Assembly (NCBI GenBank): GCA_013003075.1
Contig: JABDLJ010000007.1
Coordinates: 1-64,000 of the forward strand
Reading direction: 5' to 3'
Source: Paracoccaceae bacterium
GTDB taxonomy: Bacteria; Pseudomonadota; Alphaproteobacteria; Rhodobacterales; Rhodobacteraceae
DNA length: 64,000 bases
The position numbers were made by a program, and so were the translations under genes. A model generated the notes under the pieces. That model saw only the letters and a list, made by a program, of their open reading frames with translations. It was not told the DNA's origin and did not search any database. This document shows, piece after piece, positions 45,428 to 48,843 of this stretch (the stretch's first letter is position 1; the number at the start of each line of letters is the position of its first letter).

Positions 45428-45446
45428 CCCTATCAGTTCACAAACG

Positions 45447-45460
45447 AAAGGAGGTGGTCC
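45447..45460 (+). promoter_or_regulatory. Unusually long Shine-Dalgarno sequence
   Basis: AAAGGAGGTGGTCC can pair along 14 bases with the 16S rRNA 3' tail (GGAUCACCUCCUUU), with a single G-U wobble. It ends two bases before the GTG at 45462. No other ribosome site seen here is as long. Confidence 0.7.
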
Positions 45461-45461
45461 A

Positions 45462-45518
45462 GTGTCTAGAGTGATATTGGAGAGAGGTGTCGGAACAGTC
45501 GGAGGAGCGATCGCCTGA
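45462..45518 (+). CDS. Putative 18-residue micro-ORF
   Basis: GTG at 45462, right after the extended Shine-Dalgarno sequence, opens an 18-codon frame reading MSRVILERGVGTVGGAIA and ending in TGA at 45516-45518. A second short frame, GTG 45487 to TAA 45537, reads MSEQSEERSPEGRPKG behind its own GGAG. It overlaps the first in another register. Promoter and terminator frame the pair into a transcript of about 185 bases. The peptide may be a leader, or the RNA itself may be the product. I do not recognise it. Confidence 0.45.
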   Translation: MSRVILERGVGTVGGAIA

Positions 45519-45585
45519 GGGCAGACCCAAAGGCTAACCCTTTCGATTGGGCTAAACCCTAACTGGCCCATCTCTAACAAACTCT

Positions 45586-45616
45586 GAGGGCCGCCGACAT
45601 CCGGCGGTCCTCTTAG
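45586..45616 (+). terminator. Rho-independent terminator of the micro-locus
   Basis: GAGGGCCGCCG (45586-45596) pairs with CGGCGGTCCTC (45602-45612) over 11 base pairs including one G-U, with a five-base loop. TTAGTATTT follows. It is about 70 bases after the micro-ORF and 147 bases before arfB. Confidence 0.75.
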
Positions 45617-46274: not shown

Positions 46275-46313
46275 AAAAAATGCGGCGCGCCCCGCGGGCG
46301 AGCGGGACGCGCC
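46275..46313 (-). terminator. Terminator of the pspA-yiaA operon
   Basis: GGCGCGCCCCGC (46284-46295) pairs with GCGGGACGCGCC (46302-46313) with one mismatch. On the minus strand six T follow (46275-46280). It lies just past the yiaA-like stop. Confidence 0.75.
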
Positions 46314-46329
46314 TTGGCGTTTTGGCGGT

Positions 46330-46614
46330 TCAGGCCGCCTTGTCGGTGACGAATTCTTCGAGCAATTTTTCGTTCTTGGCGTCTTCCAGCCGCTGCAGAC
46401 GATCCTCGCGCAGATGGTCATCGAAGCGGTACTTGACGAAATTCACCAACGAGAGCGTCAGCAGCAGGATGCCGATCCCCCAGAAGCCTTTCGTCGACAA
46501 GGGAACGTCGGGCGACATGTAAAGCGACAGCGCCAGCATCCCGTAGGCGACAAGCACGCCCACCGCGTTGAATAGGATGATCAGGCTGTTGTCGCCATAT
46601 CTGAGTTTGTTCAT
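46330..46614 (-). CDS. YiaA/YiaB-like two-helix inner membrane protein
   Basis: The 94-residue protein has two hydrophobic helices (about residues 11-32 and 43-60) separated by a short loop, SPDVPLSTKGFWG, as in the YiaAB family. A charged helical tail, rich in Glu, Lys and Arg, follows. It is 31 bases downstream of pspA on the same strand and shares its terminator, so the pair probably works together at the membrane. AGGGTCTA lies in the gap between them (46641). Confidence 0.75.
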   Translation of the reverse strand: MNKLRYGDNSLIILFNAVGVLVAYGMLALSLYMSPDVPLSTKGFWGIGILLLTLSLVNFVKYRFDDHLREDRLQRLEDAKNEKLLEEFVTDKAA

Positions 46615-46645
46615 CGGTCTGGTCCTTTCGGGTATGAAACAGGGT

Positions 46646-47332
46646 CTATTCAGGCTTGGCTTTGGATTTCAGGCGGCTGAGCACATCGGCCGTGGTGATC
46701 TTGGTGGCGTTGCCATAGCCGGCTTCGGCCATGCGGTCTGGCAAGTCGCTGTGGTCAAGCCCCCGGTCGATGTCTTGCAGGATCTGCGATTGCTCGAACG
46801 GGTCGTCCTCGGCCAGAATGTTTGCGATCAACTCTTCGGCCTGGGCCACGCTGCTGCGGCCCGAGAGGGTCGAGTTCAGGCGCTTTTGCGCGTGCTGCTC
46901 GGCGCGGATCGCCTTGGCGGTGATAGCGCCCTGCTTTAGGTCGATGATCCGCCGGTGCCCGGCCTCGATGGCGCTGCGCAGGCGGACGATCTTTTGCGCC
47001 AGCCGGTCGGCGGTGGCGGTGCGCACCGCGAGCTCGTTCTCGATCTGGGCCACGGCGCTTGCGGCCTCGGCGGCCATCGCCTCGTTTCCGTCATCCATCG
47101 CGGCCTGCGCGCGGGCCACCAGATCCCTGGTCTGGCGGGCCAATCCCTCGGCCAGCCGGTCTTCGGTGCGTTGGCGCTGGATCAGGCTGGCCAGCGTCGC
47201 CTTGGCGGCCTGCTGGCTGGCCTGCGCCTCGCGGATCTTCTGGTCGATCAATTCGATCGAGAACGCCTGGCGAACCCGGTCTTCGGCCCGCGCGTTGGCG
47301 CCGGCAAAGAGGGTCGTGATCGTTCTGAACAT
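46646..47332 (-). CDS. pspA: PspA/IM30 family membrane-stress protein
   Basis: The 228-residue protein is almost entirely alpha-helical coiled coil (heptad-rich from residue 20 to about 160), beginning MFRTITTLFAGANARAEDRV as in PspA/IM30. These proteins oligomerise on damaged inner membrane. No pspF, pspB or pspC is nearby. Three TGAAC-N3-GTTCA palindromes lie in the 87 bases upstream, and a TetR-type gene is adjacent. The C-terminus ends with LSRLKSKAKPE. Confidence 0.88.
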   Translation of the reverse strand: MFRTITTLFAGANARAEDRVRQAFSIELIDQKIREAQASQQAAKATLASLIQRQRTEDRLAEGLARQTRDLVARAQAAMDDGNEAMAAEAASAVAQIENELAVRTATADRLAQKIVRLRSAIEAGHRRIIDLKQGAITAKAIRAEQHAQKRLNSTLSGRSSVAQAEELIANILAEDDPFEQSQILQDIDRGLDHSDLPDRMAEAGYGNATKITTADVLSRLKSKAKPE

Positions 47333-47349
47333 CCCACATCTCCTTTTCT

Positions 47350-47362
47350 TGAACGGTGTTCA
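47350..47362. promoter_or_regulatory. Putative TetR operator O1
   Basis: TGAACGGTGTTCA, a five-base inverted repeat with a three-base spacer, 18 bases upstream of the pspA start. One of four identical-arm copies around this gene pair. Confidence 0.75.
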
Positions 47363-47384
47363 TGGGATGAATATGCGGCAAGCC

Positions 47385-47397
47385 TGAACGATGTTCA
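47385..47397. promoter_or_regulatory. Putative TetR operator O2
   Basis: TGAACGATGTTCA, same arms as O1. Its start is 35 bases from the start of O1. Confidence 0.75.
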
Positions 47398-47406
47398 AGA
47401 TAGAAA

Positions 47407-47419
47407 TGAACGATGTTCA
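47407..47419. promoter_or_regulatory. Putative TetR operator O3
   Basis: TGAACGATGTTCA, identical to O2 and 22 bases away, about two helical turns, on the same face of the DNA. It lies between pspA and the end of tetR. Confidence 0.75.
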
Positions 47420-47439
47420 AAACGATGGATTTCCAGAGA

Positions 47440-48036
47440 CTAAGGCCGGGTGAAGCGGCGCAACAGCAGCTCGATCATCGTCTCCAGATCTTTGACCGGC
47501 ACGGCCGAGATCCGCTTCTCCAGCCCCAGAAGGACGATGCCGTGGACCGACGAGAAGAGCGCGCGGGTCATCAGCGCGACCTGTTCCTCGCCCTGTTCGG
47601 GATAGAGCGTCTGCAGCGGCTCGAAGATCAGCGCGAAGACCCGCGACAGCTCGGCCATGTACCAGTCCGGCACGTCCTGATCGGTGGACATCTCAAGATC
47701 GAAAAGGGTGCGCCAGGCGTTGGTGTTGGCGGCGGCGAAGGCAAGATAGGCGCGGCCCATGATGACGAGGCGCTCGGTGGGGTCGGTGGCGTGGCTTTGC
47801 GTGACGGCCGCCGTCACCTCGGCGCCCAGCCGCCGGAACGTGCGCCCGTTCACCGCCATCACCACATGCTGGATATCATCGAACACGGTGTAGATCGCGC
47901 CCAGCGCGCAACCGGCCTCGGACGCAAGATCGCGCGCCTTGATCGCGTCGATACCATGCTCGACGATCCGCGCCTCGGCGATGTCGATCAGCCGCGCCCT
48001 AAGTGCCTCTCGTTTCTGCTGGACCTTGCCGGCCAT
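47440..48036 (-). CDS. TetR-family repressor (WHG-type C-terminus)
   Basis: The 198-residue regulator has an N-terminal helix-turn-helix (about residues 20-55: ARDLASEAGCALGAIYTVF) and a C-terminal ligand domain of the type often annotated TetR_C WHG. A TGAAC-N3-GTTCA site lies 17 bases before its start, and three more lie between it and pspA. It therefore probably represses both itself and pspA-yiaA. The inducer is unknown. It lies upstream of pspA on the same strand. Confidence 0.9.
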   Translation of the reverse strand: MAGKVQQKREALRARLIDIAEARIVEHGIDAIKARDLASEAGCALGAIYTVFDDIQHVVMAVNGRTFRRLGAEVTAAVTQSHATDPTERLVIMGRAYLAFAAANTNAWRTLFDLEMSTDQDVPDWYMAELSRVFALIFEPLQTLYPEQGEEQVALMTRALFSSVHGIVLLGLEKRISAVPVKDLETMIELLLRRFTRP

Positions 48037-48052
48037 GCCGCCATCCGATCTA

Positions 48053-48065
48053 TGAACCCCGTTCA
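48053..48065. promoter_or_regulatory. Putative TetR operator O4 (autoregulation)
   Basis: TGAACCCCGTTCA has the same arms as O1-O3 with a CCC spacer. It lies 17 bases upstream of the tetR start. Confidence 0.7.
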
Positions 48066-48087: not shown

Positions 48088-48843
48088 TCAAATAGGAAGG
48101 GGCGCGGGATCCGGCAGCTTCAGATCAAGCACCAGGGGCACATGATCGCTGAGCCCGGTCGCGATCCAGTCGTCGAAACCGCCGATCTCGAAATGCGTCA
48201 CGAAGGGCAGCCACCCGGCCGGCAGGAACGTGTAATCGAGATGGTAGGTCGGCCCGTCGCGGGTACGGTCGCGCCAGTACAGCGTCGGGGTTTGCTCGGC
48301 GCCATGCGGCTCTTCGGTGCGGGCGTGATAGGCGCTGGTCATGCCCAGCCGATCCATGATCGCGACCTTGGCCATGTGGTTGGTGCGCCAGCCGGGCTTG
48401 TCCCAGATCGCGTTGTTGTTGAGATCGCCGCCCAGGATCGTGCGGCCGCCTTCGAGGAAATCGCGATATCTCGACAGGCCCAGCCGCAGCGGGCCAAGCT
48501 GGTGTTTGCGGGTGATCCCGGCGCTGGCATTCTGCGCCCAGACGGCCATCAGGTTGAAGCTGGCCGGCCCGGTGACATGGACCGGCAAGAGGTATTGCAA
48601 GGTGGGATAAAACGGCGCGGCGCGGACCAGCCGGTAGCTGCCGAAGGCCAGCGCCGCAAGCCCCTTGTGGCGGTTCCGGCCGGTCCAGACACAGGTTTGG
48701 TCCGTCAGCCCGCCCACCCCGCGCTGCGCCAGCGTGCCGGGATCGGCGCATTCACCGATCACCGCGATGTCCGGGCGCAGCGCCATCAGCGCGTCCATCT
48801 TGCGGTGCAGCGCCATGTTGCAGTTCCAGAAGACAAGGCGCAT
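48088..48843 (-). CDS. Endonuclease/exonuclease/phosphatase family protein
   Basis: The 251-residue protein begins RLVFWNCNMALHRKMDAL and has the catalytic segments IAVIGECAD, GGDLNNNAIWD and the terminal LSDHVPLVLDL, as in the EEP superfamily of metal-dependent phosphoesterases. No signal peptide is seen. The ATG at 48843 is chosen because longer frames have no family support. The substrate (DNA, lipid or phosphoinositide) cannot be told. It is on the same strand as tetR, about 50 bases upstream. Confidence 0.82.
   Translation of the reverse strand: MRLVFWNCNMALHRKMDALMALRPDIAVIGECADPGTLAQRGVGGLTDQTCVWTGRNRHKGLAALAFGSYRLVRAAPFYPTLQYLLPVHVTGPASFNLMAVWAQNASAGITRKHQLGPLRLGLSRYRDFLEGGRTILGGDLNNNAIWDKPGWRTNHMAKVAIMDRLGMTSAYHARTEEPHGAEQTPTLYWRDRTRDGPTYHLDYTFLPAGWLPFVTHFEIGGFDDWIATGLSDHVPLVLDLKLPDPAPLPI

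Follow-up and report, generated by a model that had tools for sequence, protein, structure and literature searches.

Conserved TetR-type repressor and predicted operators before pspA suggest activation of PspA by membrane-lipid damage

Many marine bacteria share a TetR-type regulator together with its predicted operators before pspA, and in other places these sites precede phospholipid-repair genes, which suggests that PspA is switched on in these organisms by sensing damaged membrane lipids and not by the textbook PspF route. Judging from the sequence patterns described below, the regulator very probably represses both pspA-yiaA and its own gene. The complete explanation, comprising a TetR repressor, an inducer arising from lipid damage and the joint release of PspA and phospholipid-repair genes, is considered likely. 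Taken by itself, a lipid-derived inducer is slightly favoured, based on the phospholipid genes in the target set. The locus in the analysed window, i.e., the whole stretch of 64 kb of DNA under study, is the smallest form of this proposed membrane-lipid repair regulon. The features of the locus are as follows.

47440..48036, minus strand: tetR, encoding a TetR/AcrR-family repressor with a TetR_C_33 (WHG) C-terminal domain, 198 aa
46646..47332, minus strand: pspA, encoding a PspA/IM30 (ESCRT-III-like) membrane-repair protein, 228 aa
46330..46614, minus strand: yiaA-like gene, encoding a membrane protein of 94 aa with two helices and a charged tail conserved at the C-terminus
47407..47419: O1, predicted pspA-distal operator, TGAACATCGTTCA on the minus strand, exact in most relatives
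47385..47397: O2, predicted middle operator, overlapping the predicted -35 box TTGAAC
47350..47362: O3, predicted pspA-proximal operator, at the predicted transcription start, 34-35 bp from O2 in relatives
48053..48065: predicted operator of tetR immediately ahead of the gene start, reading TGAACGGGGTTCA on the minus strand, with a non-RNY centre
47370..47398, minus strand: predicted pspA promoter, with -35 TTGAAC (47398-47393), a 17 bp spacer and -10 CATATT (47375-47370)

Genes, operators and promoter of the locus

The gene set named in the original prediction, consisting of tetR, pspA and a two-helix YiaA-like gene, is present with all three genes on the minus strand. According to Pfam, the pspA product is a member of the PspA_IM30 family (PF04012; 5.1e-15, 56.1 bits, above the cut-off of 33.9). 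The tetR product matches TetR_C_33 (6e-12, 46.5 bits, cut-off 26.8) and TetR_N (8.9e-5), the latter with 22.6 bits slightly below the cut-off of 24. The yiaA-like product scores 19.7 bits against YiaAB (PF05360), which is below the cut-off of 26.6. This gene directly follows pspA, an arrangement kept in relatives. No sequence link was found between the PspA of the window and a solved PspA structure. Just upstream of tetR, an ORF on the minus strand (48088-48843) appears by eye to be of the endonuclease/exonuclease/phosphatase type, with no Pfam match at 1e-3. In addition, positions 45438-45610 of the plus strand resemble the Caulobacter sRNA CC2171 (RF01867; E 1.8e-4), with 33.9 bits lying below the gathering score of 75.

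Exact matching located TGAAC-N3-GTTCA exactly four times in the window (47350, 47385, 47407 and 48053), in agreement with the coordinates claimed earlier, while shuffling gives a chance expectation of 0.03. A chance origin of the palindromes was rejected, as four copies were reached in 0 of 100 shuffles and the control pattern occurred 0 times in the phylum-wide scan discussed below. The assembly of the window's own genome (2.47 Mb, 65% complete) contains one further exact copy. This fifth site was rejected as a member of the regulon, as it lies inside an mlaD-like coding sequence and its centre does not follow the purine-N-pyrimidine (RNY) pattern. The three sites before pspA are the only exact copies in this genome with an RNY centre, and no second target was seen in the 65% complete assembly. 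Sites with one mismatch were discarded because they carry no usable signal, with 22 sites (18 beyond the four operators) compared with 13 for the reversed pattern.

The promoter in the window was called by direct reading of the sequence, and its geometry recurs in relatives. Specifically, a T precedes the TGAAC of O2 in 49 of 50 loci, so that O2 begins one base into the -35 box, and a -10-like hexamer follows 16-17 bp beyond the -35 box in 44 of the 50. Ten aligned loci do not contain the middle palindrome; in these, the TTG of the -35 box is kept in all ten and TTGA in eight. With O2 on the -35 box and O3 where transcription is expected to start, a bound repressor is predicted to act by simply occluding RNA polymerase. 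The 22-base spacing between O2 and O3 of the original numbering (47385/47407, here O2 and O1) is correct for the window, and O1 lies 22 or 23 bp upstream of the middle operator in relatives. The associated proposal of binding on one face of the helix fits this pair, as 22-23 bp correspond to 2.1-2.2 turns, but not the 34-35 bp to O3, which correspond to 3.3 turns and thus to a different face. A single helical face was therefore dropped as the main cause of the spacing, which is better explained by promoter geometry.

A further inverted repeat, GGAAAC-N5-GTTTCC, abuts O1 in about ten loci with up to two mismatches (0.1 expected), among them L019, L050, L059, L069, L079, L083, L091, L096 and L098. 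The copy in the window (47418-47434, minus strand) has three mismatches. This repeat is possibly the site of a second regulator.

Conservation in Rhodobacteraceae and two kinds of operator centre

Orthologues of the window PspA are found in 57 of 394 genomes of the family (E<1e-20), including Thalassobius, Halocynthiibacter, Tropicimonas and Albidovulum. In nearly all of these relatives, tetR-pspA-yiaA is preserved with order and direction unchanged. The TetR is more widespread, occurring in 85 of the 394 genomes and in each of the 57 with a window-type PspA. Whether relatives that share the gene order also keep the palindromes had been set beforehand as a test, and they were indeed kept in about 60 Rhodobacteraceae loci. 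Exact operators precede pspA in 62 loci, with three copies in 46, two in 15 and one in a single locus, at spacings of 22-23 bp and 34-35 bp. The spacers between the operators vary freely, which indicates that the operators themselves are under selection. Furthermore, 55 of 61 orthologous tetR genes carry an operator of their own.

The two groups of sites differ in their centres. An RNY centre is present in 164 of 171 pspA operators versus 12 of 55 tetR operators (Fisher 7e-28, uncorrected for kinship), the latter share being at chance level. From this contrast we infer that the pspA sites are probably stronger and that the autoregulatory site of tetR is weak. Where the gene after tetR is not pspA or plsC, the tetR operator shows an RNY centre in seven of nine cases (noted for loci L191, L193 and L195-L199), a small sample that differs in this respect from the pspA-linked loci.

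Wider regulon, repressor structure and proposed inducer

A scan of the class for operator pairs, performed with no gene requirement, returned hits in 13 of 385 genomes. With RNY centres, the scan of the phylum gave hits in 30 of 398 genomes, compared with 0 for the reversed control. Among 30 loci from this phylum-wide scan, 15 adjoin pspA-yiaA and 12 adjoin LplT-PlsC-Aas or Aas; one of the remainder adjoins the recurrent membrane protein u141, and two adjoin genes for secreted proteins. The identity of LplT-Aas was assigned by an NCBIfam equivalog above cut-off, and the scan lands on the same TetR clade as that of the window. In three genomes (G622, G992 and G806), pspA-yiaA and LplT-Aas stand consecutively beside a divergent tetR, and in some genomes of one alphaproteobacterial family (G832 and G818) both targets are located at separate loci. 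Other operator-bearing genes encode a CDP-alcohol phosphatidyltransferase together with a hydrolase-methyltransferase, PlsC and CdsA (G575 and G629), a fatty-acid hydroxylase (G629, G039 and G307), and a fatty-acid desaturase and PlsC (G309). The circuit had originally been described as compact and self-regulated. Self-regulation is in line with the operator before tetR, but the circuit is not merely local, as the same operators are found in relatives before a larger group of genes, many of them for phospholipid repair.

Some members of the regulon have no obvious lipid role, namely a DUF2145 operon, a cytochrome c peroxidase-like protein, a DprE1-like oxidoreductase and a lipoprotein. Within Rhodobacteraceae, an operator recurs at the DUF2145 operon in six genera and at u141 in seven genera. 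The sites at these and the other additional genes named above were picked from lists, in part by visual choice with a preference for RNY centres, and their frequency is thus no measured rate. At the DUF2145 operon (L146, L159, L232, L233, L238 and L239), four of the six genera show an operator pair exactly 54 bp apart. In two further loci (L148:1575-1600 and L154:1510-1535), two operators directly adjoin each other, with no bases between them, ahead of a conserved protein predicted to be exported. A DUF2157/Lia membrane domain was considered for u141 and rejected, given no Pfam or NCBIfam match.

TetR genomes without a window-type PspA reveal further arrangements. Several contain a second, distant pspA-yiaA with three operators and a tetR in divergent orientation (L204, L206, L207, L209 and L210), and in two cases, G195 and G265 (loci L192 and L201), tetR is directly followed by PlsC-CdsA. 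In the remaining genomes the TetR is still present, in most cases preceded by an operator, and operator-bearing targets lie elsewhere. In the tree, the window TetR is sister to the PlsC-CdsA-linked TetR of G195 (support 96/79). Judged by these predicted sites, the operator is retained even as the target varies.

The AlphaFold2 model of the window TetR (pLDDT 87.6) has 3CJD as its nearest solved structure, with a TM-score of 0.93 and about 51% identity in the structure alignment (sequence E 3e-61). 3CJD is a crystal structure of YP_510936.1, a TetR regulator from Jannaschia sp. CCS1 that is termed putative in the entry title and is evidently an orthologue of the window TetR. No publication naming it was found in a literature search that was thin on subscription journals and preprints. 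The next nearest folds are Rv1816, 3ON2, FasR and KstR, the last two being binders of acyl-CoA compounds according to their entry titles. The likeness of the modelled fold to FasR and KstR is consistent with a lipid ligand, although identity to these lipid-family neighbours is a weak 15-22% and TetR folds are generally alike.

The repressor may alternatively be an ordinary drug or solvent sensor of the AcrR/TtgR type, bound directly by membrane-active compounds against which PspA and the lipid genes protect. TtgR and AcrR are among the sequence matches to the repressor profile, and multidrug TetR regulators are common neighbours of membrane-protection genes. However, the targets seen include no recurring efflux pump, and those that recur and are characterised are enzymes acting on lysophospholipids and phospholipids, so that this explanation is considered unlikely. 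More doubtful still is a role of PspA or the YiaA-like protein in holding and releasing the repressor, comparable to PspA and PspF, in which case the signal would be the state of the membrane with no small ligand involved. Enterobacterial PspA does restrain its own regulator, as described in PMC6003685 and PMC3128695, yet the same TetR clade and operators appear to control Aas/LplT with no pspA nearby, and the TetR persists with its operator in genomes where no linked pspA was found. Binding of the palindromes by a different regulator, with the neighbouring TetR being incidental, seems very improbable. The site accompanies the TetR in different families, whether the genes are arranged co-directionally or divergently, and the site before tetR itself recurs in nearly all orthologous loci (55/61).

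In the favoured explanation, the TetR-type protein would bind TGAAC-RNY-GTTCA as a repressor. Seated on the three pspA operators, i.e., upstream of the -35 box, over it and over the transcription start, it would keep pspA-yiaA off, and it would repress its own gene via a single operator whose centre is unselected and probably weaker. Upon damage to membrane lipids, a product, most likely a lysophospholipid, a free fatty acid or an acyl-CoA/ACP, would bind the repressor and release it from the DNA. PspA and its small membrane partner could then patch the membrane. In many relatives, the same repressor would also free genes for the re-acylation of lysophospholipids and the remaking of phospholipids, namely LplT-PlsC-Aas, PlsC, CdsA, the CDP-alcohol phosphatidyltransferase and the desaturase/hydroxylase. 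The lysophospholipids that phospholipases produce are recycled by LplT/Aas (PMC11416262), and a signalling role of lysophospholipids in E. coli has recently been proposed (PMC13170283).

A broader proposal is put forward tentatively. An undescribed clade of repressors in Alphaproteobacteria and other Pseudomonadota may sense breakdown products of membrane lipids and jointly control PspA-YiaA and lysophospholipid recycling, which would make PspA part of a lipid-repair regulon with a chemical trigger in place of PspF-PspBC. A two-strength operator code, with RNY at the targets and an unselected centre at tetR, may set the order of release. If true, a single regulator would link ESCRT-III-like membrane repair with the recycling of lysophospholipids, and the system would constitute a natural biosensor for membrane-lipid damage.

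Comparison with known systems

The switching of PspA outside enterobacteria is a long-standing gap. The circuit described here is a one-component system for which the structure of a repressor orthologue (3CJD) is solved and the operator is exact. Its targets point at one class of inducer, and the signal is therefore directly testable in vitro. The combination of TetR, PspA and YiaA, as well as the motif AACNNNGTT together with TetR, returned nothing relevant from a literature search covering few subscription journals and preprints. An earlier prediction of the motif, e.g., in regulon databases such as RegPrecise, is possible.

The enterobacterial PspFABC system shares the PspA/IM30 effector and a small membrane-protein partner, with induced expression presumed. 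In contrast to its sigma-54 and PspF, the window type has a sigma-70-like promoter under a TetR repressor, and the partner of PspA is YiaA-like. The original prediction that pspF and pspC are missing agrees with the survey of 12 module-bearing genomes. PspC was found in none of the 12, including the 65% complete window genome, with positive controls detected, and PspF (TIGR02974) above cut-off in 0 of the 12 compared with 1 of 14 control genomes. The LiaFSR, ClgR-controlled and HAAS-PadR variants of the phage-shock response likewise place PspA under a regulator other than PspF (PMC11237479, PMC9239133), whereas here a TetR carrying TetR_C_33 is the regulator and lipid-repair genes are targeted alongside PspA. 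Neither TetR nor YiaA was returned by word searches of the two large surveys.

The LplT/Aas pathway of lysophospholipid recycling is represented by several operator-bearing targets, which are LplT-PlsC-Aas fusions or Aas; a word search of PMC11416262 returned no mention of TetR or Psp. FasR and KstR, found among the nearest structures, have in common with the window TetR the fold and lipid-gene targets. The window TetR differs from them in its low identity (about 17-22%), the operator TGAAC-N3-GTTCA and the targeting of PspA. Two other lipid-responsive TetR regulators, DesT and PsrA, share the fold and lipid-gene targets as well, and the window TetR is set apart from both by the same three features.
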